DNA of 64,000 nucleotides from Polynucleobacter sp. AP-Jannik-300A-C4 (lineage in GTDB: Bacteria; Pseudomonadota; Gammaproteobacteria; Burkholderiales; Burkholderiaceae). The stretch is taken from contig NZ_CP061316.1 of NCBI RefSeq assembly GCF_018688335.1, positions 682,001 to 746,000 on the forward strand, read 5' to 3'. The translations under genes were made by a program, and so were the position numbers. Of the stretch, positions 332 to 14,204 are shown in pieces (position 1 is the stretch's first letter; every line of letters begins with the position of its first letter). Below the pieces are notes generated by a model. That model saw nothing but the letters and a program-made list of their open reading frames with translations, did no database searches and was not told where the DNA came from.

Positions 332-691
332 ATGACAGATGATGAAGTCAATAAGTTGGAAAGTTTAGTCATAGATATGGCCATTGAGAGCTGGCGCTTT
401 TCAAGACTTTTTGTCAGGGTTGCTGGAAAGTTGGATGCTGGTGAAACTGCAAAATACGTAAATCAACTTCGGTATTTTCAAAAGAAAGTCGAGGATGGGC
501 TCAATCAGATTGGTTTAAAAGTTGTAAATCTAGAAGGTCAATCATTTGATGCTGGTATGGCGGTATCTGCAATCAATATTGAAGACTTTGAAGCTAGTGA
601 TATTTTGATCGTTGAACAAATGATAGAGCCGGTCATTATGGGTGCTGATGGTTTAAGGCGGTCCGGTGCTGTGATGTTAAGGAAAGTTTGA
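332..691 (+). CDS. GrpE-like mini-protein (putative Hsp70 nucleotide exchange factor)
   Basis: The product has 119 residues. Its C-terminal half follows the layout of the GrpE head domain: a helix ending GLNQIGLKVV, then GQSFDAG near residue 69 where GrpE proteins have a GxxFDPxxHxA motif, and a final LRRSGAVML where GrpE has the gDRVLRPAxV strand. The first 60 residues are helical but much shorter than the long coiled coil of cellular GrpE (about 200 residues in total). The hsp70 gene starts one base after its stop codon, which supports a partner role. In GrpE-type proteins this domain opens the Hsp70 nucleotide cleft; that role here is inference. The His of the GrpE motif is absent, so the assignment is a remote-homology call. 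Confidence 0.55.
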   Translation: MTDDEVNKLESLVIDMAIESWRFSRLFVRVAGKLDAGETAKYVNQLRYFQKKVEDGLNQIGLKVVNLEGQSFDAGMAVSAINIEDFEASDILIVEQMIEPVIMGADGLRRSGAVMLRKV

Positions 692-692
692 A

Positions 693-3185
693 ATGAAATA
701 TGTCGGCATAGACTTAGGTACAACTAATAGCGCAATTTGCACTTATGACGGAGAGTCAGTCCGCCTCTATAAAAGTCCTGAGCAGCATGATGTCACGCCA
801 TCTGCGATATTCATTGATAAGCGTGGAAATAGGTATGTAGGTGCCAGGGCCTATGATAGCTCTGCGAAAAATCCAGATAATTCAGCAACTTTATTTAAGA
901 GATTGATTGGTACAAATACACCAATTACCTTGAAGGCTGTAGATAAGGTTATGACACCAGAGGAGTGCTCGGCTGAAATCCTTAGAGTACTTTTTTCTTA
1001 TCTACCAGAGGAAATTAGAAATGATGACTCTACAGGCACTGTAATCACAGTACCTGCAGCATTTAATCAAATGCAAAAAGATGCAACAATGGCAGCTGCC
1101 GAACTTGCTGGAATCGGTAAGGTTGCCCTAATGCAAGAGCCTGTTGCGGCAGTAATGTCTGTAATGAAGAGTAGAAAAATTGATGGCACATTCCTAGTCT
1201 ATGATCTTGGCGGCGGGACGCTTGACATTGCAATTGCGGAGAGCACCTCAGGTCGGGTTAGTCTTCTAGCTCATGGCGGAATTGCAATGTGTGGTGGGCG
1301 AGATTTTGATCGGATTCTTTTTGATAATGTTGTCAAACCATGGCTTGTCAGCAACTTCGACTTAGGTGAAGCTTTTGCCACCGAGCCTAAATTTAAAAAA
1401 TTACGCAATATTGCTCTTTGGGCTGCTGAAAAAGCAAAAATTGAGCTTTCTCAGAAAGAAGATGCAATTATTAGCATGCCTGAAACTGATATTGGAATTC
1501 AGGACGAGTCAGGTGCAGATATTTATCTGGATATCTCGCTTAGTCGTAACCAGTTAAACGATCTCATATCGCCCAAAATAGAAGAATCAATTGGTGCGAC
1601 AAGGGATGCTCTGGAAAAAGCAGGGCTAACACCCCATGATATTGAGAGGGTTGTATTTGTAGGGGGGCCAACAAACTATAAGCCCCTAAGAGATAAAGTT
1701 GCCTTTGAATTGGGAATTGCCCCTTCAACCGATGTCAACCCGATGACTGCTGTTGCAGAAGGTGCCGCAATTTTTGCAGAATCAATTGACTGGTCTACGC
1801 AGAATAGGTCAAGAAAAAATAGTCGAGGTGCTCTTAGTACTGGCGGAACTTTGAATCTTGGTTTTAACTACATAGCCAGAACGCCAGATCAAAAATCCAA
1901 AATTATTGCCATGGTTTCAGGAAGTGTTGCGCCTGGTACAGAGTTTCAAATTGATAATTTAGACACTGGATGGTCTTCTGGTCGGATTACTTTGGTTGAT
2001 AAAGCAGCCCTTGAGGTCTCGCTATCTAAACCAGGTGAGAATGTATTCAAAGTGTTTATTTTTGATGCAAATGGCGGGCCGATACGTATTGAAAATACAA
2101 GACTAGTAATTACTAGAACTGCAGCAAGCATTGATGCCATTCCTGCATCTCACTCGATTGGTCTTGAGGTCAAAGAAAAACTTGCCGGAAAAACTACGCT
2201 TGATTATTTAATTAAGGATGGAGACCAGCTTCCAAAAAAAGGAAAAAAAGTATACAAGGCAGCAGAGTCTTTAAAAGCAGGAAGTTTGAATTCTCTTAAA
2301 TTTAAATTATGGGAAGGCGATATATCAGAGTCAATTTCTGATAATCGGTTTATTGGTATGTTTGAAATCAAAGGGTCAGATATTGAAGAGGGGGTAATCG
2401 CAGCAGGATCAGAGCTTGTATGCGACTTTGAGATACTTGATTCTGGAAATATTATTTTAGAAGTATCTGTGCCCTCAATAGGGGGATCCTTTCATAGCGG
2501 TAGAAATTTTTACTCGCGTCAAGAAGGCCAAATTGATTACAGTCAGGCCGCAAAAGTTGTCAGTGAACAAGCATCCAGCGCGCTTGATAAATTGGATTTA
2601 ATGAGCGGAAAAATAGATGATCCTCGCCTTGATGAGGCTAAGAAGAAGCTTCAGGAATCTTCAGCAATTCGTCCAGATGAGTCGGACCCGGAGACAACTA
2701 AAAATGCTATGGATCAAATCCAAGATGCAAAAAGACTGATGTCTCTTGCTCGCAAAGAGCACCTACAGCAAATTCGTCAAATTGAACTTGATACTGTCAC
2801 TAATGTATTTAATGAAGTCATTCGCCAGTATGCTAGACCAACAGAAGAGTCGGCTTGTGACAATTTGATAAGAACCGCACAGAGAGCAATAGACAATAAG
2901 AGCCCTGAGTTTGAGGCGCTTATTGACGAGCTCAGAAATAAAAATTTCCAAATACTATGGCGACAAGATTGGTTTATTGCAGATAGATTCAAAATGTACT
3001 CGGATGAGCCACATAAGTTCCCTGATATTCCTGAGTATCATGCATTAATTGCCGAGGGAAACAAGTCAATTTCCGCTGGAGATGTAGATAAGTTGAGGCA
3101 AGTTGTTGCTCAGCTTGGATCCATGAAGATCTATTCTGGTGATGAGGATGACATGATTGCAGCAACTAACATTATTTCCGGATGA
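693..3185 (+). CDS. Hsp70 (DnaK-like) chaperone with an extra domain
   Basis: The 830-residue product has a complete Hsp70 nucleotide-binding domain: GIDLGTTNS at residues 5-13, the phosphate-2 motif VYDLGGGTLDIAI near 169-181 and the adenosine motif VVFVGGPTNY near 320. Housekeeping DnaK is about 640 residues. Here a region of roughly 90 residues (about 385-475), apparently beta-rich, separates the ATPase domain from a recognisable substrate-binding beta domain (about 480-610, with LWEGDI and the following DNRFIGMFEI). A long helical C-terminus (620-830) follows and lacks the EEVD-like tail. The gene is preceded by the GrpE-like gene and overlaps the AAA+ gene by four bases (ATGA). It uses AGA and ATA codons freely, unlike the core genes further right, which suggests acquisition. 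It is not the housekeeping dnaK, since no normal dnaJ or grpE accompanies it. Substrate unknown. Confidence 0.9.
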   Translation: MKYVGIDLGTTNSAICTYDGESVRLYKSPEQHDVTPSAIFIDKRGNRYVGARAYDSSAKNPDNSATLFKRLIGTNTPITLKAVDKVMTPEECSAEILRVLFSYLPEEIRNDDSTGTVITVPAAFNQMQKDATMAAAELAGIGKVALMQEPVAAVMSVMKSRKIDGTFLVYDLGGGTLDIAIAESTSGRVSLLAHGGIAMCGGRDFDRILFDNVVKPWLVSNFDLGEAFATEPKFKKLRNIALWAAEKAKIELSQKEDAIISMPETDIGIQDESGADIYLDISLSRNQLNDLISPKIEESIGATRDALEKAGLTPHDIERVVFVGGPTNYKPLRDKVAFELGIAPSTDVNPMTAVAEGAAIFAESIDWSTQNRSRKNSRGALSTGGTLNLGFNYIARTPDQKSKIIAMVSGSVAPGTEFQIDNLDTGWSSGRITLVDKAALEVSLSKPGENVFKVFIFDANGGPIRIENTRLVITRTAASIDAIPASHSIGLEVKEKLAGKTTLDYLIKDGDQLPKKGKKVYKAAESLKAGSLNSLKFKLWEGDISESISDNRFIGMFEIKGSDIEEGVIAAGSELVCDFEILDSGNIILEVSVPSIGGSFHSGRNFYSRQEGQIDYSQAAKVVSEQASSALDKLDLMSGKIDDPRLDEAKKKLQESSAIRPDESDPETTKNAMDQIQDAKRLMSLARKEHLQQIRQIELDTVTNVFNEVIRQYARPTEESACDNLIRTAQRAIDNKSPEFEALIDELRNKNFQILWRQDWFIADRFKMYSDEPHKFPDIPEYHALIAEGNKSISAGDVDKLRQVVAQLGSMKIYSGDEDDMIAATNIISG

Positions 3186-4618
3186 ATATGGAGCAATGGC
3201 TTCCAATCGGATTAGATCTACCTCTTGGGTATAAAGCTAAGAAGGTGCTTCAATCAGGAAATTCATGGCAAATTATACAAGCTTCTGAGGCTGGTAAAGC
3301 GCTCATCGCAAAGGAATCATTATTTGATAAGTGGATTAATGATGGACTTATTGATGAAACTATATTCTCAAAATTTATTTATGGAGAAGAAGTTTTCTAC
3401 TCCCTTTATGTCCCTAACAAATACCAATTAACTACCCTTGATAAAGCTAAATCACCAAATTCAAAAAATGATGCAATTTCATTTGCCCAGTGTCTAAAAA
3501 AGACTAGGGATAGAAATATAGATATCGCACTACACGATGCGATTTTTATAGAGTCCATAACAAGACTGCTTCCTACCTATTCAATATCAACGCCGGTTGG
3601 TGATGATGTGCTCTTAGGATACTGGTTGACAGGTGGGATACCGATTTCTGTTCATTCTTCTAGGCGACTAAAGCAAATTGTTAGTTGGTTGGATCCAAAA
3701 TATCTTGATGAAATAATTAATGTTTCAGGTATTGATGCTTCAAACAATTCTATTTTGGAGGCAGGGCTACTAAAAGATTCAGAGAGCCCAGTCGATCCAA
3801 TCGGGAGGTCTAATCAGCTTGATGGCAAGGAAATTACTCAAAAATCTTCTCATTTTGAGTTGCCTGGCCGAATTGAGTTGACTCATTTTTTCAATGAGCA
3901 TGTTGTAGATATTATTAATAATGAAGAGCGTTATAAATTGCTTGGAATTAATTTTCCCTCCGCCATAATTCTTTATGGCCCACCAGGTAGCGGCAAGACT
4001 TATGCGGTGGAGAAGTTAACTGATTACTTGGAATGGCCAATGTTTGAAGTTGATGCCAGCAGCATCGGAAGCCCATATATTCATGAAACTAGTAAAAAAA
4101 TTGCCGATATCTTTAAGAGGGCGATTGAGAGCTCCCCTTCAATATTGGTTATTGACGAAATGGATGCTTTTTTATCTGACAGGGAAGCTGGGGCTGGCCA
4201 GCACAGGGTGGAGGAAATTGCTGAATTCCTAAGGCAAATCCCAGAGGCCACAAAAAATAAGGTTTTAATTGTCGGCATGACAAATAGGATTGATACCATT
4301 GACTCTGCCATTCTTAGGAGGGGTAGATTTGATCATGTAATTATGGTTGACTATGCCAATGAGGAAGAAATTTTAGGAATGCTTAAAAATTCTTTATCTA
4401 AGATCCCAAAAGCAGATGATCTTAAATTAATTGATGCCTCAAAAAGGCTTGCTGGTAGACCTCTTTCTGATGCGGCTTACGTAATTAGGGAGGCTGCGAG
4501 ACTGGCAGCTAGAAGTGGTAAGACTCTCATAGATCAAGAAAGTTTGAATATCGCTCTGGATGAAACCCCTGTTAGGGATAAAAAATCAGAGCAACATCGT
4601 CCAATAGGATTTCTTTAG
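3182..4618 (+). CDS. AAA+ ATPase with a unique N-terminal region
   Basis: The 478-residue protein has one AAA+ module in its second half: Walker A GPPGSGKT near residue 266, Walker B ILVIDEMDAF near 322, a sensor-1 stretch VGMTNR, and the arginine-finger segment RRGRFD near 378. This is the classic layout of the FtsH/Cdc48/proteasomal-ATPase clade. The C-terminal helical lid ends near residue 460. No protease, zinc site or membrane segment is present, so it is not FtsH. The first 230 residues are not recognised; they start with a glycine-containing hairpin followed by an AKE that loosely recalls a kinase N-lobe, which I do not rely on. The ATG overlaps the hsp70 stop, implying translational coupling. 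Likely an unfolding or remodelling motor acting with the Hsp70 (inference). Confidence 0.85.
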   Translation: MNMEQWLPIGLDLPLGYKAKKVLQSGNSWQIIQASEAGKALIAKESLFDKWINDGLIDETIFSKFIYGEEVFYSLYVPNKYQLTTLDKAKSPNSKNDAISFAQCLKKTRDRNIDIALHDAIFIESITRLLPTYSISTPVGDDVLLGYWLTGGIPISVHSSRRLKQIVSWLDPKYLDEIINVSGIDASNNSILEAGLLKDSESPVDPIGRSNQLDGKEITQKSSHFELPGRIELTHFFNEHVVDIINNEERYKLLGINFPSAIILYGPPGSGKTYAVEKLTDYLEWPMFEVDASSIGSPYIHETSKKIADIFKRAIESSPSILVIDEMDAFLSDREAGAGQHRVEEIAEFLRQIPEATKNKVLIVGMTNRIDTIDSAILRRGRFDHVIMVDYANEEEILGMLKNSLSKIPKADDLKLIDASKRLAGRPLSDAAYVIREAARLAARSGKTLIDQESLNIALDETPVRDKKSEQHRPIGFL

Positions 4619-4629
4619 AGGGATGAGAA

Positions 4630-5256
4630 ATGTCGGAGAATGACAATAAAAAAGGATTTGCTGGCCTATCTTCACTTGAGTCAAAAGTGGAGCCTGTTCA
4701 CAGTAAAGAAGTCCCGGATCAAGAAAAAAATGAAACAAATTTAGAGGAGCCCCATTCGCAGGCAGTTAGAACAGAGCCTCCCCCCATATCAACTGTTGTG
4801 CCTAAATATACCTATTCTCCAGAAATGGAATTTGTTAAAAAGTATTGGATATGGCTATTGTTGGGAATTTTTCTTATTTATATTTTCGCATCTCAGGATA
4901 GTAAAAAAACCACATCTACTAGTTACTCATCTGGCTCCTATACTCCGGCACCGGCCTATACGGCGCCAAGCTTTAGTTCGGAGCTTGTTGAATCAAAACC
5001 CCTGTACGGCGCAAATAATGTACTTACTGCCTCTGAAATTTATTATTGCAAGGCTGAGGAGTTGAGAATTGAGTCTAACAAGACAACTGTTGATCGTTAT
5101 GATGATTTTTCTTTGACAAGGTTTAATCAAACAGTCCAAGACTACAACAGTAGATGTGCCCAGTATAGATACAAAGATGCCGCCATGAATTCAGCAAACA
5201 ATGCGCTTGAATCAAATAGGTATTCAATAGAGGCCCAAGGTAGGGCCAGGATGTGA
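4630..5256 (+). CDS. Single-span membrane protein of the Hsp70 cassette
   Basis: No family is recognised for this 208-residue protein. It has an acidic, proline-containing N-terminal tail of about 70 residues, one strong membrane segment at about residues 72-89 (YWIWLLLGIFLIYIFA), a Ser/Thr/Tyr/Pro-rich linker, and a C-terminal domain of about 90 residues with two cysteines (in YYCKAEEL and NSRCAQY) that could form a disulfide outside the cytoplasm. The absence of a cleavable signal and the long polar N-tail suggest an N-in orientation. It lies 11 bases after the AAA+ gene and 15 bases before the J-like gene, so it is co-transcribed. Its presence suggests that the chaperone module acts at the inner membrane. 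Function unknown. Confidence 0.75.
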   Translation: MSENDNKKGFAGLSSLESKVEPVHSKEVPDQEKNETNLEEPHSQAVRTEPPPISTVVPKYTYSPEMEFVKKYWIWLLLGIFLIYIFASQDSKKTTSTSYSSGSYTPAPAYTAPSFSSELVESKPLYGANNVLTASEIYYCKAEELRIESNKTTVDRYDDFSLTRFNQTVQDYNSRCAQYRYKDAAMNSANNALESNRYSIEAQGRARM

Positions 5257-5271
5257 TGTTGAGGATTTAAT

Positions 5272-6918
5272 ATGCGCCAATTAACAAAGAATAATTTAAA
5301 TGAAAATCCTTTTTATATTCTGAAGGCAAGCCCCAGGGATACTAAGGCAAAAATTATTGAGTTCGCCGATGAGGTGGGACTCAGCTTAGACTCTGAGATT
5401 TGTAATAAGGCTCGCTCAGACTTAACAAATCCTCGCAATAGAATCGCGCATGAAATATCTTGGTTTCCAGGTGTTTCCCCAAAAAAATGCCAAGAGCTAG
5501 CCCTTTTATCCCTTAGTAACCCAAAGTTTGTTCTTGATGAATCATCCTTGCCGCCTCTGGTTTTGGCAAATTTATGGACAGCATTCTTTGAAGCTCTTGA
5601 TGATGGAGAGAGCGGGGTGGAAATATCAGATTCAATTGTTAAATTTGCACATCTTTTGGAAGGCCTGTCTGCTTCAGACATTATGCGAGATCTTAATGAA
5701 GATCGCCTTGTTTCTGGATTTGCAGAGATTACATCATTAGATTTAGTGGAAGAGGCTTTAACCGAAAGAAAAAAAGTCTTCAAGCTGATAGTAAGAGATT
5801 CCCTTAACAGACTTTCTACGGATCAGTTAATTTCAGTTATGACCGATGTATGCACTGAGGGTACATTAAGTGGTGAGATAAATGCGCCTGAATTTATCTA
5901 CTCAATAATTGATTCTTATGAAATTGAAACCCAAGTATTTTTAAGTAATGAATATGAAACAGCAAAGAAGCTATGCACTGCTATCTTAACTAATGCAGCT
6001 GCCAATTCTTCATTGGAGCCAAATTTATCAAATCTTAATGATGTTTCTAGAAACTTCTCAAGAGTGGCTAAGCCAATACAGCTTGCATATAAGTCTAGAG
6101 GCATGGAGCATGAATTAAGTAAAACATATGCATATGAAGTAAGGTCTTTGGCTATCGATCTTCATAATAAGCATAACCAACTCGATACATCCTTAAGTCT
6201 TACAAAAGTTAATAGGGAAATTTTTGCAGATATCCCTGAATTTGTTGACCGAGCCGATGAGGATCGGGAGACTTTAATTCAATTCCAGGCTGATAAAGAA
6301 AAAAGTAAGGAAGATCAAGAGGAGTGGGCTCAAGAAATTACTTATAGCGCTGAAATTGGTTTGGTCTTTAAGGAAACTTTGTCCCTGTCTCCAAGTGGTG
6401 CATCATATGGTGCGAAAAAATACCCCCTTGATAGCATTACGAGAATTGGGTGGGGTGCGGTACGAAATTCTGTCAATGGGATACCAACTGGTACGGACCA
6501 CACTATTTTCTTTGGTGATTCTAATTCACAGGCAACTGTCACAACAAGAAAAGAAAAGGTTTACCAGGACTTTACTGATAAGTTATGGCGAGCTGTTGGA
6601 ATTAGAATTATTACTCAGATGATCTCTCTCCTAAGGGCCGGAAACTCTATGAATTTTAGGGAGATGACTGTATGGGATGATCGTGTAACCCTTAAAAAGC
6701 ATAAACTTTTCGGGTCTGAAGATGTTACGTGTCCCTGGTCTGATGTGCAGATTTGGTCTGCTGATGGCTCCATGTACATTGGACACACTAAGGACAATAA
6801 AATATATAGTGCCCTTCCTTATCTCAGCACTGCTAATGCGCATGTATTGGAAATGTTAATTAGAGCTGCATTTAAGAAGCCTGGGCTTATTAAGCTAAGC
6901 CAAACCTTTGAAAACTAG
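5272..6918 (+). CDS. J-domain-like protein with C-terminal PH-like repeats
   Basis: The N-terminus of this 548-residue product (about residues 9-68: NPFYILKASPRDTKAKI, then LTNPRNRIAHEISWFPG) follows the helix pattern of degenerate J-domain proteins. The HPD tripeptide needed to stimulate ordinary DnaK is absent. The middle (70-340) is helical and unrecognised. The C-terminal 200 residues contain two similar beta-rich segments, about 350-450 and 460-545, each with a strand-turn pattern ending in a helix (VYQDFTDKLW and ANAHVLEMLI), compatible with bacterial PH-like domains. As last gene of the cassette it completes a GrpE/Hsp70/J-like set with the AAA+ and membrane proteins. The J-like and PH-like assignments are pattern-based and would need profile or structure comparison. 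Confidence 0.6.
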   Translation: MRQLTKNNLNENPFYILKASPRDTKAKIIEFADEVGLSLDSEICNKARSDLTNPRNRIAHEISWFPGVSPKKCQELALLSLSNPKFVLDESSLPPLVLANLWTAFFEALDDGESGVEISDSIVKFAHLLEGLSASDIMRDLNEDRLVSGFAEITSLDLVEEALTERKKVFKLIVRDSLNRLSTDQLISVMTDVCTEGTLSGEINAPEFIYSIIDSYEIETQVFLSNEYETAKKLCTAILTNAAANSSLEPNLSNLNDVSRNFSRVAKPIQLAYKSRGMEHELSKTYAYEVRSLAIDLHNKHNQLDTSLSLTKVNREIFADIPEFVDRADEDRETLIQFQADKEKSKEDQEEWAQEITYSAEIGLVFKETLSLSPSGASYGAKKYPLDSITRIGWGAVRNSVNGIPTGTDHTIFFGDSNSQATVTTRKEKVYQDFTDKLWRAVGIRIITQMISLLRAGNSMNFREMTVWDDRVTLKKHKLFGSEDVTCPWSDVQIWSADGSMYIGHTKDNKIYSALPYLSTANAHVLEMLIRAAFKKPGLIKLSQTFEN

Positions 6919-7018
6919 ACCTTAAGCACTTTTCTATTAATCTAATTGCATTTAATTTGGGTTATTGACTTTTCTATTTGAAATTTGCTATAGGTATCTC
7001 TCGCATGGAAAGGCAATA

Positions 7019-7357
7019 ATGAAAACATTTATGCAACAGATTGAAGACTCCGAGGAGCTCACTGCAGTCCATGACACCGAAGTTACAAAGCCTCAAAATC
7101 CCAACCCAGATAAACAAATAACCAGTAAAACCTCACATTTTGTGCCCGATATTCCTGCATTTACAACTCTGAAGTTCGAGAAGGGGGTCAATAACAGTTA
7201 TTGGGTTCATCTAATTGCTCAGTGTGGTGTTAAGCAGGGTTTAGAGATTTATTTCAGTAGTGACTTTATGGCTCCTGAATATATAGAGTTCATTAGGAAG
7301 TTAAATATCTGCACTAATCAAATCTTAGATTTTGTTGATTCAATCTCAAATAGTTAA
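7019..7357 (+). CDS. Small unknown protein upstream of the HNH nuclease
   Basis: I place the start at the ATG at 7019, which is preceded by a GGAAAGG, giving 112 residues; an upstream alternative start at 6965 lacks such a site. The first 45 residues are polar and probably disordered. The remainder (from VPDIPAFTTLKFEKG) looks like a small alpha/beta domain ending in helices, with one Cys in the core. No family is recognised. It lies about 100 bases after the J-like gene and almost touches the nuclease gene, so it may be a partner or accessory of the nuclease, or the last member of the chaperone cassette. Nothing in the sequence decides between these. Confidence 0.6.
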   Translation: MKTFMQQIEDSEELTAVHDTEVTKPQNPNPDKQITSKTSHFVPDIPAFTTLKFEKGVNNSYWVHLIAQCGVKQGLEIYFSSDFMAPEYIEFIRKLNICTNQILDFVDSISNS

Positions 7358-7364
7358 AAATTTC

Positions 7365-8192
7365 ATGCCATTTAATCCAAATCTTCACCAGGGTGCAGAG
7401 CTTAATAATGAGGAGCTATGTAATTTGTTCGGCTGTAGTCCTCAAGGTGGAATGCGAAGATCGCTTAAGAATGGGGCTCTGGTATTAATTTCCAATCGGG
7501 TAGAGTCTCTCTACCAGGATAGATTTGTTGACGATGTTATTCATTACACCGGAATGGGGCAGGTTGGCGATCAAGATATTAATAGTGCCCAGAACAAAAC
7601 ACTCAATGAATCCAAAATCAATGGAGTAAGTGTTTATCTATTTGAAGTTTTAGAGCCTAGAAAATATACCTTTACCGGTCAAGTTGAGTTAGCAGGCGAG
7701 CCATACCAGGAGGTGCAGGAGGATGTAGAGGGTAATGATCGGAAAGTTTGGATGTTTCCTCTTGGCTTCATTGGTGGGCAGCATTTGAAGCCTTTACCTG
7801 CCGAGAAAGTTAAAAGCCTAGAGATTGCTCGGGAGCGACAAATTACCAGGCTCGATAGAGAAGAGTTGCTTCATAGAGCTAAGCAAGCTGCCAAATTACC
7901 TGGCTCTAGGGCTGTCGTGTCGAAGCAATATCAAAGAAATGAGTATGTAGCCGAAGAGGCTAGAAGAAGGGCTCAAGGCATTTGTCAGCTATGTAGTGAG
8001 GCTGCTCCTTTTGCCAACAAAACTGGGCAGCCATATCTTGAAGTGCATCATGTGCAATGGCTTGCAAAGGGGGGTGAAGATAGCTTACAGAATACTGTGG
8101 CACTTTGTCCTAATTGCCATCGCAAGATGCACATCCTTGATGCGGCTGAAGATAAGCAATTCTTGCTATCTAATTTAATGCTAAAAGTCTAA
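7365..8192 (+). CDS. SRA-like/HNH modification-dependent restriction endonuclease (McrA type)
   Basis: The protein is 275 residues from the ATG at 7365; a TTG at 7332 would add 11 residues but overlaps the previous gene. The N-terminal 150 residues match the SRA/YDG-like domain found in ScoMcrA-type enzymes: a GAELNNEEL start, GGMRRS, then YQDRFVDDVIHYTGMGQVGDQ. The C-terminal 70 residues are a full HNH nuclease: CxxC at about residue 207 (CQLC), EVHHVQWLAKGG, then NTVALCPNCHRKMH. SRA-type domains read modified cytosine and some related enzymes read phosphorothioate DNA, so this is probably a type IV restriction enzyme cutting modified foreign DNA. It sits at the right end of the cargo block, convergent with the replication module. 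The specific modification recognised cannot be read from sequence. Confidence 0.85.
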   Translation: MPFNPNLHQGAELNNEELCNLFGCSPQGGMRRSLKNGALVLISNRVESLYQDRFVDDVIHYTGMGQVGDQDINSAQNKTLNESKINGVSVYLFEVLEPRKYTFTGQVELAGEPYQEVQEDVEGNDRKVWMFPLGFIGGQHLKPLPAEKVKSLEIARERQITRLDREELLHRAKQAAKLPGSRAVVSKQYQRNEYVAEEARRRAQGICQLCSEAAPFANKTGQPYLEVHHVQWLAKGGEDSLQNTVALCPNCHRKMHILDAAEDKQFLLSNLMLKV

Positions 8193-8448: not shown

Positions 8449-9795
8449 TTAAAACACTGAATTTGCAATCTTTATGACTCCATATAAATTGCCATTTTTT
8501 GACCTCTTTTTAGTGAATCTTTTGGACATTTCTTCACCCCATTGAGTTGCACCTTGTGGCTGCTCACCTCGATTTAGCTTCCAATCTTTATATGTTTGAT
8601 AAAGAGGATCTGATCGCTCAAAGTTCACATCGGATGGCTCCAGGGCTTCATCCATCCAATTGAATGGAGTTGATTGACTGCTCATGTAGTCTTGGATCTC
8701 AGCCTCAACCACATCACATCTGGGCAGTCTTTTGCCTAGAGTCATCCACTTGATATGCCCATCAATTAGCCAGCGCATGATGTTTTCATCCTCTTTAGCT
8801 AATTTCTCAGGCAGATCTGGATCACCCCTCCCTGTGAAGTTGGCACCAAACCTGACCATCTTGATGCGACTATTCATTGCCTCTGTGACTGATGAGAGTC
8901 TTGGTCTGTGATTGCCATAGATCAGCAGCTTAAATGTGCGATCAAACTCAAAGAGATCTCCTCGCATGAATCTGGCTGAGAGCTTTGCATCACCAGTGAG
9001 CTCATTGATTCTGTTTTCACTCCAGAATGATGATGAGTCCACCTCTGATGCGACAGCAAGTCTGCATCCAAGCAGATTCGCAATCTCAGTAGGATGACCA
9101 TCATGCTTTGACTTGAGTAATGTGGAGGAGGGGATCTTCCTGGCATAAGTCCCCATGACTCGCATCACTGCATCGCCTAGAGTATTTTTACCATTGCGAC
9201 CATTGCCAATCCAAAACATCAGCCAATGGTTTTCGACTGCTCCTGATAGGCATGCCCCCAGTGCAATTTGTAAAAACTCCATCAGCTCATCATCGTTGAG
9301 TGTGATCTCCTGCAAAAACTGTGGGAATCTGAACCCATAGCCATCGCCAGGAGCCACATTGGTGATGTTTGTAATTAGATCCTTTGGGTCATGCTCTTTG
9401 ATCCCACCAGTTCTCAGGTCATAGGTGCCATCTGGACAGTTCAATAGATATCGGTCAGAGTCAAACATATTGGATGACCTTGCAAATGTTGGATCGTTTT
9501 TGCAGAACCATTCCACACCACTGGCGAATGACCTTTTCTCTGCTTGCTTGCCACCCACCAAAGTGGATGCAACATTTCGGCAGTAATGAGAGACCAGTCC
9601 CATTTTCTGAGCAGCCCAATATTGACCAGTCCACTCAAACCAATTATTTGAATGGTGATCAAAGATCAATCTGTCTGTGTATCTCTGGGCGAATGCCAGG
9701 GCCACAGTGTGCTCTGATCCACCTTTGAGAAGTGCATTCTCGATTGGCTCAATCTCTGTGGATGGATCAAATACCTCGATTTGATTCATGCTCAT
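8449..9795 (-). CDS. D5-type SF3 helicase (phage/plasmid primase C-terminal family)
   Basis: The 448-residue protein matches the D5_N plus SF3 helicase architecture of phage and satellite primase-helicases. The N-terminal part has FDHHSNNWFEWTGQYW and FLLNCPDGTYD-like segments (here YLLNCPDGTYD). The Walker A motif is GNGRNGKNTL, with the Asn typical of this family, followed by VASEVD (Walker B region) and LLIYGNHRP (sensor). It unwinds DNA during element replication. The ATG at 9795-9793 overlaps the stop of the upstream TOPRIM gene. In satellites such as P4, primase and helicase are one polypeptide; here they are two coupled genes. It is the last gene of the minus-strand module. Confidence 0.9.
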   Translation of the reverse strand: MSMNQIEVFDPSTEIEPIENALLKGGSEHTVALAFAQRYTDRLIFDHHSNNWFEWTGQYWAAQKMGLVSHYCRNVASTLVGGKQAEKRSFASGVEWFCKNDPTFARSSNMFDSDRYLLNCPDGTYDLRTGGIKEHDPKDLITNITNVAPGDGYGFRFPQFLQEITLNDDELMEFLQIALGACLSGAVENHWLMFWIGNGRNGKNTLGDAVMRVMGTYARKIPSSTLLKSKHDGHPTEIANLLGCRLAVASEVDSSSFWSENRINELTGDAKLSARFMRGDLFEFDRTFKLLIYGNHRPRLSSVTEAMNSRIKMVRFGANFTGRGDPDLPEKLAKEDENIMRWLIDGHIKWMTLGKRLPRCDVVEAEIQDYMSSQSTPFNWMDEALEPSDVNFERSDPLYQTYKDWKLNRGEQPQGATQWGEEMSKRFTKKRSKNGNLYGVIKIANSVF

Positions 9796-10625
9796 TGCTC
9801 ACCTCGATTCAGTAAGTCATTGAAGTCAGTCCAGGATGGGTCGCAGTCAGGGCCAAACTTGGGGAATATGGCCTTGCCACTCACAGCTCTGGCAGCCTCC
9901 ATCGCAGCTTTCCTGCCAGTCTCATCAGTGTCACCAGCGATGATGATGTCCATCTTTGGCAATTCCAATTTGAGGCTGAGTGCGACCTTGATCAGATTGC
10001 TTGCGCTAAATGCCACCACCACAAAATGCTTTCCACTCTCATGCAGGGATGCAGCTGTGGCATATCCCTCGCAGATGATGATTGGCTTGCCCTTTGTGAT
10101 CATGCCAATGAAGTGACAGCCTCCAGCAGCTTTGCCACCAGGGAAAAACCTCTTGCCTCCAGCAGTATTGATAAATTGAATCGATTGCATATCGCCAGCC
10201 ACTGAGTAGATCGGCACCATCAATGTTCCCTCTTTAGAGATCTTGAGGCCATGACTTTTGACTTTCTTTTTCACCAAATATGGATGGTCATCTGGGGCAT
10301 CAGGAGCAGCATCAAAGATGTCCTCACACTTTTTGGCATTGGTCATATAGGTGAGCTCTCTTTTTGCATCCTCGATTGCTCTTGCCTTGGTGATCTGCAT
10401 TGCAAATTGCTCTCGCTCATAGGGAGTCTTTTTGGACTGAGCTGATTGCCAAATAAATCTGTCACCATTGCGCCAGTCACCGACTACACCACCAGAGCAG
10501 TCCTCAAAGAGCAGACCCCATCCTGAGTAGTTTTTGCCAAACCTAAAGAATGTGCCTGGCTTGATGACATCTGGCAGCCTATATTCTGGAAAGTGATCCC
10601 GAATAAAATCTTTAAATTCGTTCAT
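9792..10625 (-). CDS. TOPRIM-domain primase
   Basis: The 277-residue product carries a TOPRIM fold in its second half: the acidic strand IIICEGYATAAS and the DxD-like IIAGDTDETGRKA motif. Both are needed for metal-dependent primer synthesis in DnaG-type and satellite primases. The N-terminal part (FFRFGKNYSGWGLLFEDCSGG and GDWRNG) resembles the degenerate zinc-ribbon or substrate-recognition region of plasmid and phage primases, but without a clear cysteine set. Its start ATG overlaps the stop of the preceding gene, and its stop overlaps the start of the helicase gene. The two together probably form the element's primase-helicase. Confidence 0.85.
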   Translation of the reverse strand: MNEFKDFIRDHFPEYRLPDVIKPGTFFRFGKNYSGWGLLFEDCSGGVVGDWRNGDRFIWQSAQSKKTPYEREQFAMQITKARAIEDAKRELTYMTNAKKCEDIFDAAPDAPDDHPYLVKKKVKSHGLKISKEGTLMVPIYSVAGDMQSIQFINTAGGKRFFPGGKAAGGCHFIGMITKGKPIIICEGYATAASLHESGKHFVVVAFSASNLIKVALSLKLELPKMDIIIAGDTDETGRKAAMEAARAVSGKAIFPKFGPDCDPSWTDFNDLLNRGEQ

Positions 10626-11206
10626 TGAATTATCCCCTCTGGCTTATCAAAGTGCCCCAGGGTCTCTCGATAGAGATTGAGTAATACCAATGCATGTGAC
10701 ACAGCAAGAAATATCTCAGTAGTCTCAACTGTGGGGAATAAGGCCTGCATCTTTTCCTCAACCAGGAATAAGAGTGCCACCTCGGACTTAGCTGATCCTG
10801 ATGCAAATACAGCACCAGCAATCGTGCTGGCCAGCATCGCCATGCCAGTTCTAGTCTGTTCATTTGCCTCCATGCTTTGGCCCTTGGTGATGATGAATTG
10901 AGCATCGGCATTGCTAAGCAGAGAGAAGATATAAGTCAGAGCTGATTCACTGACTTGCTCATCCCACACTCGGTTGTGGACTACCGCTTTGACTGGCCTA
11001 GATGAGACAGCAGCATCAATCAAATCAATGAAGATGGCCTCGCCAGAGTTGATTAAGAAATATCTCGATTGCCAGCAAGGTCTCTCTGCTCTGTCATTCC
11101 ATAGCTCCACCACTTGGTGAATCTGACTCTCTAGGAATCTGTTGATATGGGCATAGTTCGCAGTAGGGTGCGCAGACTTCCCCTCTCTAAGGTATTTAGG
11201 TAACAT
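10622..11206 (-). CDS. Unknown protein of the integrative element
   Basis: No known family is recognised in this 194-residue protein. It is mainly helical, with a moderately hydrophobic Ala/Ser-rich stretch near the middle (AMLASTIAGAVFASGSA) that looks more like a buried helix than a membrane span. It starts with an ATG preceded by AAGG and is translationally coupled to the primase gene by an ATGA overlap. That position suggests a role in replication or its control, for example a primase accessory protein. Confidence 0.7.
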   Translation of the reverse strand: MLPKYLREGKSAHPTANYAHINRFLESQIHQVVELWNDRAERPCWQSRYFLINSGEAIFIDLIDAAVSSRPVKAVVHNRVWDEQVSESALTYIFSLLSNADAQFIITKGQSMEANEQTRTGMAMLASTIAGAVFASGSAKSEVALLFLVEEKMQALFPTVETTEIFLAVSHALVLLNLYRETLGHFDKPEGIIQ

Positions 11207-11296
11207 TGGAGAAGCCTTTTTTCTTAATGAGAGTTTTGGAGAGGGTTAGAGCTGATTTGGGGTGCAACCCTTGTCGGCTCGTTTTGTTTGTGGGGT

Positions 11297-11509
11297 TCAT
11301 AAAATCCCCTTGAGATGGCTGTGATTCTTTGTGCGCTCCCGAATAAATGCCTCAACATCTGCGATGGCATAGAAAATGGTATTGCCGACTTTTGAGAATG
11401 CAGGACTCTGGCCTCTATATCTCCAGGCAGCTGCTGTCTTAGGTGTGATGTGCAGCAGAGAGCAGAAATCTGCTTCTGTGATCATCTTCATCTGAGCTAA
11501 TGCTTCCAT
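11297..11509 (-). CDS. AlpA/MerR-like helix-turn-helix protein (probable excisionase or regulator)
   Basis: The 70-residue protein has the winged-helix pattern of AlpA and Xis-type DNA binders: FCSLLHITPKTAAAWRYRG as the helix-turn-helix, then the strand pair FSKVGNTIFYAIADVEAFI. Such proteins direct excision or activate integrase and replication genes in satellites and genomic islands. A strong AAGGAG lies seven bases before the ATG. It is located between the integrase and the primase genes and is likely the switch protein of the module. Confidence 0.8.
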   Translation of the reverse strand: MEALAQMKMITEADFCSLLHITPKTAAAWRYRGQSPAFSKVGNTIFYAIADVEAFIRERTKNHSHLKGIL

Positions 11510-11591
11510 ATTTAAATCTCCTTTTCACTTGGAGACTCAAAGATAAAAGCAGGAAATTGGATTCAAACTTTGAATCCAGCTTATTTTTTAA

Positions 11592-11963
11592 TTAGCTGAT
11601 CTTTTTATGAATGGTGTTGTATCTCACACCATATTTTCTGGCGAGTTTATGCTTTGCCTTGATGATTAAATCTCTATCCTGAGTATCACCAGTGATGGAT
11701 GCGATCTCTGCAAGGAGCTCCTCTTTGCTAGGGGTGCCAGCGCCAATCTTTGCGGCAGCTTTATTGCCTGATTCCATGATTCGGCTACCCTTACTTGCTG
11801 CCAAATCTTCTAGGAGTTTTTGCATCATCGATGGATCGCCTCGATCCCTTAGGATTTGGGCCTCTCTAAATAAGGACTCGAGCACCTTAGTGTATGGCAC
11901 TGACTCCATAGTGCCATCTGGGAATGTATATTCCACATTAAATTTCTTCTTATCCTGAGTCAT
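11592..11963 (-). CDS. Small unknown protein coupled to the integrase gene
   Basis: The product has 123 residues and starts with an ATG that overlaps the integrase stop codon (ATGA). The last 35 residues (from DLIIKAKHKLARKYGVRYNT) look like a helix-turn-helix resembling homeodomain-like or Rep-type DNA-binding tails. The rest is polar and helical. No family is recognised. It may help the integrase or regulate it. Confidence 0.65.
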   Translation of the reverse strand: MTQDKKKFNVEYTFPDGTMESVPYTKVLESLFREAQILRDRGDPSMMQKLLEDLAASKGSRIMESGNKAAAKIGAGTPSKEELLAEIASITGDTQDRDLIIKAKHKLARKYGVRYNTIHKKIS

Positions 11964-12994
11964 ATCTTTTTTGCCAGATCAGATGCTTTGAGATTCATAT
12001 ATCGCTTGAGCATGTCAAATGATTTGTGTCCAGAGATAAGTCTTAACTCAGGCATTGTGAGCTCTTTGTTGGCAAAGTTTGTAATTGCATGGTGCCTAAG
12101 ATCATGAAAATGTAAATCAATGATCGGTGGATCAATTTGTTGGCAGCTGCGAGTGAATCTTGCACTCACAGAGCGATGATTAACTGATAGGAATATTCGG
12201 CCCTCAGTGCGCTTGCCAGCATGCCTCTTGAGCACATCTATGGCTGTTTTAGTCAGTGGAATAGTTTGATCATTGTTATGTTTATCAGTAGGTGACTTGC
12301 GCTCTCTGATCAGTACTGTGCGATCTTTCCAATTGCAATCCTCAATCAAGAGACCACAGATCTCGGCCAGACGCATCGCACTTTCAATTGCAATAGTGGT
12401 GATATCTGCCATTGGTATTTTGATGAGATCGCCTTTGCCTTTCCAATGTTTGAATAAGGCACTGAGCTCAGCCTTTGTTGGTGTTCTTGATCTTTCCTTG
12501 CCTCTAGTTTTTAAGCCGGAGTGGGTGAGGGCGGCTCTAGCATTCTTTGCCATATCTGGATCAATGTTGATCCTCCTGGAATGATGTGCCCATTTGAGGA
12601 CAGATCCAAGTGTTGAGAGGTAGCCAGCGACAGTGACACCGGTTGCTCCAGACTTGATGAGCTTATCTGTGAACTCTCTGATGTGCACTTGGTTGAATGA
12701 TTGCACTGGCGCGGCTGCAAATTCTGTGGATAGTCTTTTGAGATTGGCAGTCTTTGTGCGGCCCCATTTGATTTTGGGCTCAAGCTCTGCATAAGCATCT
12801 ATTAACTCTGAGAGATAGGTGCCTCTTGGCACAGTAATCAATCCTGCGTTGCCGGAGCTCTCGATGGCTGCCTCAATATTGGCAGCCCACCTTGCAGCCT
12901 CTGTTTTGCTTGTAAAGGTATTGGATCTATTGACCCCCTTTTTGCGAATCTGGACTCGATAGTGGCCGGAGGGTAGCTTAACAATGGTGCTCAT
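11960..12994 (-). CDS. Tyrosine recombinase (dusA-type integrase)
   Basis: The 344-residue integrase starts at the ATG at 12994; the preceding TTG would add one residue, and an AAAGG sits upstream. It has an N-terminal arm-binding region (YRVQIRKKGVNRSNTFTSK), a SAM-like core-binding domain near residues 60-150, and a catalytic domain. The catalytic residues are visible: the Arg in ESAMRLAEICGLL, HDLRHHAITNF (HxxR), the His in LISGHKSFD, and the nucleophile Tyr in LKRYMN. It faces away from dusA, whose start codon is 115 bases from its own. That is the arrangement expected for islands inserted in the 5' end of dusA. Confidence 0.93.
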   Translation of the reverse strand: MSTIVKLPSGHYRVQIRKKGVNRSNTFTSKTEAARWAANIEAAIESSGNAGLITVPRGTYLSELIDAYAELEPKIKWGRTKTANLKRLSTEFAAAPVQSFNQVHIREFTDKLIKSGATGVTVAGYLSTLGSVLKWAHHSRRINIDPDMAKNARAALTHSGLKTRGKERSRTPTKAELSALFKHWKGKGDLIKIPMADITTIAIESAMRLAEICGLLIEDCNWKDRTVLIRERKSPTDKHNNDQTIPLTKTAIDVLKRHAGKRTEGRIFLSVNHRSVSARFTRSCQQIDPPIIDLHFHDLRHHAITNFANKELTMPELRLISGHKSFDMLKRYMNLKASDLAKKI

Positions 12995-13015
12995 CAATAA
13001 CCTTTAAAATGGCTC

Positions 13016-13109: not shown

Positions 13110-14204
13110 ATGACAGACAGCAAAACCAAGCCCAGTATGAAGAGATTAGCTGTTGCCCCGATGATGGAATGGACAGATCGTCACTGTCGTTCTTTTCATC
13201 GCTCTCTGACTAAAGAAGCAATTCTCTATACCGAGATGGTTACCACCGGCGCACTCATTCATGGAGATGTGCCGCGTCATTTAGATTATTCGCAAGAGCA
13301 GCATCCTGTTGTTCTTCAATTGGGTGGCTCCGAACCTTCTGATTTAGCTAAAGCTGCGGAGTTAGCGCAGCAGTGGGGCTACGATGAGATTGATCTTAAT
13401 TGTGGTTGTCCATCAGAGCGCGTACAACGTGGCGCCTTTGGCGCCTGCTTGATGGCTGAGCCACAACTCGTTGCTGATTGCGTTAAAGCAATGAAGGCAG
13501 CTGTGGATACTCCGATTACCGTAAAGCATCGACTTGGTTTGGATTCGATGGATGCTGCTAACTCTAAGGCAGACTATCAATTTGCATTGAACTTTATTCT
13601 TGCTGTGGCTGATGCGGGCGCTAGTCAGGTAACCATTCATGCACGCAATGCAGTGCTGAAGGGTTTATCTCCTAAAGAGAACCGCAGCAAACCACCGTTA
13701 CGTTATGAAGTGGCTGCCAAGCTTCGCTTAGATGCGCAAAAGCAATTTCCTAATCTCAAGGTGTTACTCAATGGTGGTCTGGAAACTAATGATCAGATTG
13801 CTGGTCACTGGGATGATTTTGATGGCTTCATGGTTGGAAGGGCAGCGTATCATTTCCCGGCATTGCTTTTGGGCTGGGATGACATGATTTATACCGATGG
13901 CGATGCAGCTGGATACCTCTTTAGTGAAACTGAGTGGCATCGTATTCAGGTTGCGCTGGTGAAGCAAGTTCAAGCTTGGTTTGATGAGTGCCAAGCCAAA
14001 GGAAAGCCTTTTTATATTGGTGCATTCACCCGCCACATTCTGGGCCTGGCACATGGCAGGGCAGGTTCCCGCTACTGGCGTCAGCGCCTTTCTGATCACC
14101 ATGCCCTAGCTAAAGTACAAAGCAAGGCTGCCATTTTGGACTTCTTTATTGATGCTAGCCTGACCCTGGGCGATTGGGCAGCATTTGAGTTTGAAAGCGC
14201 CTAA
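13110..14204 (+). CDS. dusA: tRNA-dihydrouridine(20/20a) synthase DusA
   Basis: The 364-residue flavoenzyme reduces uridine 20/20a in the D-loop of tRNAs. Family marks are clear: VAPMMEWTDRHCR at residues 15-27, LGGSEPSDLAKAA, DEIDLNCGCPSERVQRG with the catalytic Cys in the following GACLM, TVKHRLGLD, and the DusA-specific KGLSPKENR. The ATG at 13110 has no clear Shine-Dalgarno site and the internal ATG at 13137 is an alternative. Because the integrative element abuts the 5' end, the first residues and the promoter may have been supplied by the element. Core sequence starting near APMMEWTD is the expected attachment site. tRNA-His follows after about 60 bases. Confidence 0.93.
   Translation: MTDSKTKPSMKRLAVAPMMEWTDRHCRSFHRSLTKEAILYTEMVTTGALIHGDVPRHLDYSQEQHPVVLQLGGSEPSDLAKAAELAQQWGYDEIDLNCGCPSERVQRGAFGACLMAEPQLVADCVKAMKAAVDTPITVKHRLGLDSMDAANSKADYQFALNFILAVADAGASQVTIHARNAVLKGLSPKENRSKPPLRYEVAAKLRLDAQKQFPNLKVLLNGGLETNDQIAGHWDDFDGFMVGRAAYHFPALLLGWDDMIYTDGDAAGYLFSETEWHRIQVALVKQVQAWFDECQAKGKPFYIGAFTRHILGLAHGRAGSRYWRQRLSDHHALAKVQSKAAILDFFIDASLTLGDWAAFEFESA

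Follow-up and report, generated by a model that had tools for sequence, protein, structure and literature searches.

The window analysed here, a stretch of 64,000 nucleotides from the single-contig, 2.0 Mb genome of Polynucleobacter sp. AP-Jannik-300A-C4, carries five intact plus-strand open reading frames at positions 332-6918, followed by the genes of an integrative element that ends within dusA (Table 1). Successive reading frames are separated by 1, -4 (an ATGA overlap), 11 and 15 bases, and these coordinates confirm the compact organization described in the original prediction.

Table 1. Features of the cassette and of the adjoining element (positions within the window).
Feature	Position	Strand	Remarks
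GrpE-like protein, 119 aa	332..691	+	weak similarity around G..FD motif; short
Divergent Hsp70, 830 aa	693..3185	+	PF00012 2.1e-59; ATPase motifs; hhalign SBD
AAA+ ATPase, 478 aa	3182..4618	+	PF00004 1.1e-32; Walker A and B intact; IGF near C-terminus
Single-span membrane protein, 208 aa	4630..5256	+	N-terminal motif GFAGLSSLESKV; hydrophobic segment ~68-86; then YC..NSRC domain
J-like protein without HPD (candidate), 548 aa	5272..6918	+	helix succession and residue pattern
Small ORF, neighbour outside cassette	6965..7357	+	no family above cut-off
HNH nuclease, type IV-like, neighbour outside cassette	7332..8192	+	PADLOC mREase_IV 8.6e-20; PHROG 15103 4.6e-86
Element genes: primase/helicase pieces and integrase (11960-12997, adjoins dusA)	8449..12997	-
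Right copy of 14-bp repeat, inside 5' part of dusA	13146..13159	+	left copy G000:C1:679478

The membrane and J-like proteins of the window fall into no Pfam family above cut-off, and family-profile scans recognized no effector among the cassette proteins. Elsewhere in the same genome are two further full-length Hsp70s, which their position and size suggest to be of the DnaK and HscA types, together with one housekeeping GrpE and DnaJ-domain genes. The cassette is therefore not the housekeeping set, as had been predicted. The accompanying description of a complete chaperone set goes too far, the J-like protein being without HPD and the GrpE-like protein short and weakly similar. The proposed departure from the core genes right of dusA is also borne out by measurement: G+C content is 0.399 in the cassette against 0.459 right of dusA, and, relative to a core set of 18 long ORFs, AGA accounts for 36% against 5.5% of arginine codons and ATA for 21% against 6.1% of isoleucine codons.

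The five genes are inherited as a unit

Searches of plasmids, genome contigs and whole genomes provided 13 loci readable through the cassette, namely the window, L007, L008, L009, L010, L012, L022, L023, L045, L046, L048, L049 and L050. Excluded from this count were L047, whose contig starts 573 bases before the J gene, the degraded fragment G1371, L017 (an Hsp70 relative with a weak J-like match and no GrpE-like match) and the wider relatives L014 and L051. The order GrpE-like, Hsp70, AAA+, J-like is kept in all 13; as the loci were retrieved by J-like or Hsp70 queries, this kept order is conditional on those queries. At L008 the Hsp70 gene is split, and this locus was left out of the test for co-divergence. 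Across 12 loci the gap between the GrpE-like and Hsp70 genes ranges from -4 to 2 bases, and that between the Hsp70 and AAA+ genes from -4 to 3. The protein distances of 12 loci are closely correlated (GrpE-like with Hsp70, 0.91; GrpE-like with AAA+, 0.92; GrpE-like with J-like, 0.80; Hsp70 with AAA+, 0.96; Hsp70 with J-like, 0.83; AAA+ with J-like, 0.84), and none of 2000 permutations reached any of the six observed values.

Co-occurrence follows the same pattern. Among 398 genomes of the phylum, the J-like profile (E<=0.001) matched G000, G142 and G231 only, and so did the AAA+ profile at E<=1e-60, a cut-off made stringent because AAA+ proteins abound; the two samples of 398 are apparently identical, having the same totals and the same listed handles. 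With the genome of the window excluded, both profiles match the same 2 of 397 genomes, an agreement whose probability by chance is about 1e-5. Among 61 relatives the cassette was found once, in that genome itself. The frequency of the cassette is low and patchy (3/398 in the phylum, 5/399 in the order, and 2/11 and 3/293 in two other orders), these counts including the centre genomes and, as one of the 3/293, the fragment G1371. A search with the Hsp70 matched 12 of 369 genomes, four of which (G000, G142, G563 and G766) hold five-gene cassettes, the other eight scoring far lower, at 3e-29 to 3e-4, and being left out of the count of cassette loci. L052 to L054 carry an Hsp70 of another group, with no matches to the GrpE-like or J-like profiles, and the Shewanella cassette gave no megablast match in E. 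coli genomes. At the protein level, 1319 sequences were retrieved with the J-like query and 3496 with the C-terminal half of the Hsp70, both at E<=0.001, where the scored candidates were those sharing most words and the Hsp70 set may extend beyond the cassette.

Taken together, kept order, co-divergence and co-occurrence support the view that the five genes are one co-inherited unit. The prediction of a single unit thus stands, its four-gene order recurring in other genomes, and the independent occurrence of the genes in relatives, looked for as a counter-indication, was not seen in the five-gene branch.

A divergent Hsp70 and its predicted cytoplasmic partners

The window Hsp70 comprises an ATPase domain (residues ~1-365), an insert (~366-480), an SBD-beta (~480-588) and a helical C-terminus, the last of these taken from a low-confidence structure model. 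Four ATPase motif patterns were found in all 15 cassette-family Hsp70s examined, and the SBD-beta was placed by hhalign at a probability of 63% against seven DnaK/HscA SBD sequences. On this placement, some 115 residues lie between the ATPase domain and SBD-beta of the cassette Hsp70, a position at which a short linker is usual in other Hsp70s. The structure model (mean pLDDT 65) has DnaK-type Hsp70s as its nearest folds, and was used for overall DnaK likeness only.

The GrpE-like protein scores 12.3 bits against PF01025, below the cut-off of 25.8, and an hhalign comparison of 14 cassette GrpE-like with 11 housekeeping GrpE sequences gave a probability of 32%, in register at G..FDP; its family profile retrieved nothing meaningful from PDB sequences. 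The AAA+ proteins of all 13 loci carry the tripeptide IGF, with L, I or V after it, at the C-terminus or at most seven residues from it. This tripeptide is reminiscent of the ClpP-docking loop of ClpX. With PADLOC v2.0.0 the AAA+ protein alone of the window cassette gave IetA/TRIP13 matches, the Hsp70 reached 0.0015 at best over a short stretch and the GrpE-like protein 0.016 at best, and the membrane and J-like proteins gave no match.

The J-like protein of the window is predicted to consist of short helices at residues 8-62, a helical body to ~356, a PH-like domain at 357-442 and a beta/helix unit at 458-536. Its label is a candidate one, drawn from the predicted succession of helices and our own reading of the residue pattern and not from a profile match. 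HPD is missing in 17 of 17 J-like proteins of the loci and in 120 of 120 listed homologues, two sets that may overlap. Alignment of the J-like rows with 16 HPD-bearing J domains (hhalign, 0.5%) lent no support to a J fold, in a comparison made less sensitive by misplaced cuts in two of the 15 rows (L022 and L048). The family profile found nothing meaningful among PDB sequences, and Foldseek returned no match for the whole model at E<=0.001. VIA-align rows favour mainly the PH-like part, with several PH-fold families tied, and the single listed row that reaches the J-like helices has an rmsd of 16.9. No relatives of the J-like protein were found in viral contigs or phage records.

The J-like proteins at L048:8517-10487 and L049:6377-8125 end differently: in place of the PH-like part they have a C-terminus with many hydrophobic stretches, which fall under the threshold of 1.6 used for membrane segments.

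A conserved motif marks otherwise variable membrane proteins

A domain with the pattern YC..NSRC is common to the membrane protein of 12 of the 13 loci, its gene lying between those for the AAA+ and J-like proteins in nine and after the J-like gene in three. In Polaromonas a different membrane-type gene is found upstream, in the opposite direction. A hydrophobic segment of 19 residues scores above 1.6, the threshold used, in 11 of the 12 YC..NSRC proteins (1.42 at L012) and in the Polaromonas protein also. All 13 loci, Polaromonas included, have GFxGLSxLxSxV near the N-terminus of the membrane-type protein. Every cassette therefore has a membrane-type protein bearing a shared motif, which supports the proposed link to the membrane.

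GFxGLSxLxSxV is a new motif signature of the cassette. It occurs in 17 of 2152 ORFs of at least 60 aa from 25 cassette and variant loci, and all 17 are cassette membrane-type proteins or further genes adjoining a cassette. Since the pattern was written from the cassette proteins themselves, it is the control count and not the cassette count that serves as the test: none of 2442 ORFs from 16 control regions matched, control ORFs being taken from stop to stop and cassette ORFs from the start codon. When homologues of the Shewanella membrane protein were collected, 113 of the best 120 of 807 carried the motif; among the seven exceptions, five are without that N-terminal stretch and the other two deviate from the pattern at one or two positions. 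Many homologues possess the peptidoglycan-binding domain PF01471, which the window protein does not. A second motif protein is encoded at L007 (14839), L008 (14828) and L049 (8139), and a variant of the motif at L045 (8699). The motif has the look of a common tag, carried by membrane proteins whose outer parts differ.

The outer part of the membrane protein at L045:6845-8677 consists of several near-identical repeats of ~60 residues each. Past the J-like gene, L007:13679-17486 and L022:11965-15424 share extra genes, for a protein of ~214 aa, secreted-looking proteins and an RDD-type membrane protein.

Short forms and wider relatives

A single protein unites the J-like domain, a membrane segment and the YC..NSRC domain in L011 (Aminobacter) and in two Sinorhizobium loci, L016 and L018, and its gene is followed by the GrpE-like and then the Hsp70 gene; at L015 the same stretch is split into two adjacent genes. 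None of these four loci, at ~20 kb each, gave a match to the cassette AAA+ protein or to the motif. The Sinorhizobium loci being close kin, the short forms perhaps amount to two independent cases. The fusion is a lead, not proof, that the J-like and membrane proteins act together, and the joint absence of AAA+ protein and motif suggests that in the full cassette the motif may take the place of this covalent connection, with the J-like or AAA+ protein as its binding partner.

These loci bear on the idea that the Hsp70, GrpE-like and J-like proteins are a core trio, to which the AAA+ and membrane proteins are frequent but interchangeable neighbours and not parts of one machine. Four loci with the trio and without the cassette AAA+ protein favour it, as does the displaced membrane protein of another type in Polaromonas; set against these are the presence of the AAA+ gene in 13 of 13 five-gene loci and the closeness with which its product tracks the Hsp70 (r 0.96), and we regard the idea as improbable.

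On plasmid pHALHY02 of Haliscomenobacter hydrossis, L014:6345-13870 encodes a protein that looks J-like by eye, a coiled-coil membrane-type protein, an Hsp70, a kinase-AAA+ fusion ending in IGFKP, and TerB, and the cluster adjoins BREX genes; it may be a remote version of this theme. At L051:3013-7289 (G533) an Hsp70 gene in pieces precedes a protein of J-like appearance and a fragment of an AAA+ protein, and the locus may belong to a further branch.

The cassette travels on mobile DNA

The left copy of the 14-bp repeat lies 2.5 kb left of the window, and the gene to its left encodes a pseudouridine synthase, while the product of dusA at the right copy is Dus. In L057, from the same genus, the match to the synthase (84% identity) ends 16 bp before that to dusA (94%), as expected of an uninterrupted site. 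L061 and L066 also have the two genes as neighbours at lower identity and L065 shows a short match, and in the loci of 12 other relatives the adjacency was not seen within the stretch examined. A repeat search inside the dusA stretch alone found none. Repeats, integrase and the uninterrupted site in L057 support an element of ~15.7 kb at dusA with the cassette as its cargo, as the original prediction had proposed. At window positions 8449-11206, primase and helicase functions occupy separate adjacent reading frames, as in satellite-type elements.

Eight of the 12 other loci have a mobile context, being on a plasmid or having Tn7-like, conjugation or integrase genes nearby: L007 to L010 are on plasmids, two of the four beside Tn7-like genes, L012 has an integrase, L045 is surrounded by conjugation genes (TraC, 6.9e-92), L046 has TniQ and L048 TrbL (5.8e-36). 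L023, with a transposase-type protein upstream, was left out of this count. That the cassette is mobile cargo is thus well supported.

Such settings invite the thought that the cassette serves the element itself, through entry exclusion, the handling of the mating channel or stabilization of the mobile element. The placement of L045 and L048 among or beside conjugation genes would agree with this, and so would a weak match of the window membrane protein to a 'superinfection exclusion' PHROG (3.5e-4). The latter may, however, reflect the membrane segment and low-complexity sequence, and the cassette is also borne by elements of the Tn7-like and dusA types, where the part examined holds no conjugation gene; we consider a function of this kind unlikely.

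Neighbouring genes and a possible role in defence

A defensive role had originally been proposed from a restriction gene of SRA/HNH type that follows the cassette. The HNH domain was confirmed; for SRA, no Pfam model matched at E<=1. A tblastn search found no relative of this gene in 23 other cassette and variant loci (best E 0.67). The gene was accordingly rejected as part of the cassette and, lying outside it, is no evidence of a defence role.

At E<=1e-40, 27 PADLOC families had matches among 79 proteins that flank 11 five-gene loci and 38 among 28 proteins from five short-form or wider loci, against one among 80 control proteins drawn at random from 16 regions in six genomes. What is counted here is families, of which many may fall on one protein, and the numbers are not independent; the plasmid loci have no plasmid control. 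PADLOC was run on alignments, with matches assigned to proteins by record annotation. One flank set omits L008 and L049 and another L018, and where no annotated record was available the flank and control proteins are mechanical ORF calls, some of which are perhaps not genes. An excess of defence neighbours is present in number (27 families against 1) but drawn from a minority of loci: strong neighbours stem mainly from the Polaromonas plasmid and, by name, a Vibrio regulator. The Polaromonas cassette, surrounded by zorA, brxD and pglZ (record names) and an OLD/UvrD pair, is the sole five-gene locus amid named defence genes. Among the short forms, Sinorhizobium has a helicase/endonuclease pair and a methyltransferase nearby. 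Individual scans (E<=1e-8) of ten proteins that flank six other loci gave two matches only, to a WYL regulator and to a UvrD-like protein. That the cassette may defend the cell is plausible, and is our leading guess at its function.

A working model

Our best explanation, to which we assign a probability of about 0.5, is that the five proteins form one protein-remodelling machine tethered to the inner membrane and carried as cargo of mobile DNA. The N-terminal motif would act as a docking peptide, by which the J-like or AAA+ subunit grips the membrane or cell-wall protein. The HPD-less J-like protein may serve as a scaffold whose PH-like part binds the membrane or a partner, the Hsp70, served by the GrpE-like exchange factor of the cassette, would hold or load a polypeptide, and the AAA+ ring would pull it. 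A change in the envelope would switch the machine on. That its role is to defend the cell or the element against something crossing the envelope seems to us to have slightly less than an even chance.

It is tempting to go further and liken the machine, by analogy, to the mitochondrial import motor. A wall-anchored sensor might, through its motif tail, hand over to the J-like, Hsp70 and AAA+ proteins, and the complex on the inner face would seize and pull proteins entering with phage or plasmid DNA, so that a take-over is stopped. This guarding of entry is a doubtful extension and rather improbable in its particulars.

Alternatively, the cassette may be a stress-tolerance island that keeps envelope and membrane proteins folded, with no role against invaders. 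Mobile heat-resistance loci of the ClpG/ClpK type exist, the recognizable cytoplasmic parts of the cassette are chaperone or AAA+ types with no recognized effector, and several loci had no defence neighbour in what was scanned, all of which would suit such an island. Nevertheless, the missing HPD (17/17 and 120/120) and the insert in place of the short Hsp70 linker are unlike folding chaperones, and a conserved motif on the membrane protein is hardly something that a general folding system would require. We hold this explanation to be somewhat unlikely.

The gene set is widespread, no name for it was found, and it would tie a dedicated Hsp70 to an AAA+ motor and the cell wall. It would offer a natural test of how an Hsp70 acts beside a J-like protein without HPD, and the motif is short enough for its removal to be testable. 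If the cassette proves protective, it would constitute chaperone-motor immunity, a type with no model in PADLOC v2.0.0.

Comparison with known systems

The original prediction knew of no named system with this gene order, and our search of the full-text literature, preprints and most subscription papers excepted, likewise listed no paper whose title or opening of the abstract describes the gene set. Against the canonical DnaK-DnaJ-GrpE machine, the nucleotide motifs of the cassette Hsp70 are intact (15/15) and HPD is absent. Another comparison is with the mitochondrial presequence translocase-associated motor (PAM), in which an Hsp70 tethered to the membrane works with a GrpE-type exchanger, the HPD-less J-like Pam16 and the HPD-bearing Pam18, and no AAA+ protein. 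Common to both are the tethering of the Hsp70 to the membrane (proposed in the case of the cassette), an exchanger of GrpE type and an HPD-less J-like subunit; unlike the cassette, PAM has Pam18 and lacks an AAA+ protein, and homology was seen for the Hsp70 and, weakly, GrpE.

Zorya has an inner-membrane part anchored to the cell wall and cytoplasmic partners, an arrangement like that proposed for the cassette, and zorA adjoins the Polaromonas cassette; yet no MotA/B-like channel or nuclease is found among the five cassette proteins. The cassette AAA+ protein resembles IetA of the anti-phage system IetAS (PADLOC 5.2e-27; NCBIfam IteA 91 bits). Membership of IetAS was rejected, 91 bits standing against an NCBIfam cut-off of 510 and no protease family being present in the cassette.

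Similar neighbourhoods are those of the predicted, GTPase-centred GAP1-N2 HSP70 conflict systems (Kaur et al. 2020, PMC7159879), which combine HSP70, GrpE and a DnaJ-domain protein with a predicted conflict function near the membrane. They share with the cassette the grouping of HSP70, GrpE or GrpE-like and DnaJ or J-like proteins in one neighbourhood, but are described there with DO-GTPases, GAP1 and FNIII repeats and mainly from actinobacteria and firmicutes (PMC7159879), whereas the cassette has an AAA+ protein as second motor, a J-like protein without HPD and named hosts among Pseudomonadota. Pfam found no DO-GTPase, GAP1 or FNIII in the five window proteins and two neighbours, and membership was rejected on the absence of these parts. 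CoCoNuT type III, a predicted defence system, includes the Hsp70-like CnuD, whose motifs are described as partly degenerate (PMC11090510), while the ATPase motifs of the cassette Hsp70 are intact; it too was rejected, there being no McrB-like or McrC-like (CnuC) match above cut-off in the window cassette. Finally, phage sensing by bNACHT25 is reported to require DnaJ, so that chaperones can serve in sensing (PMC12169576).
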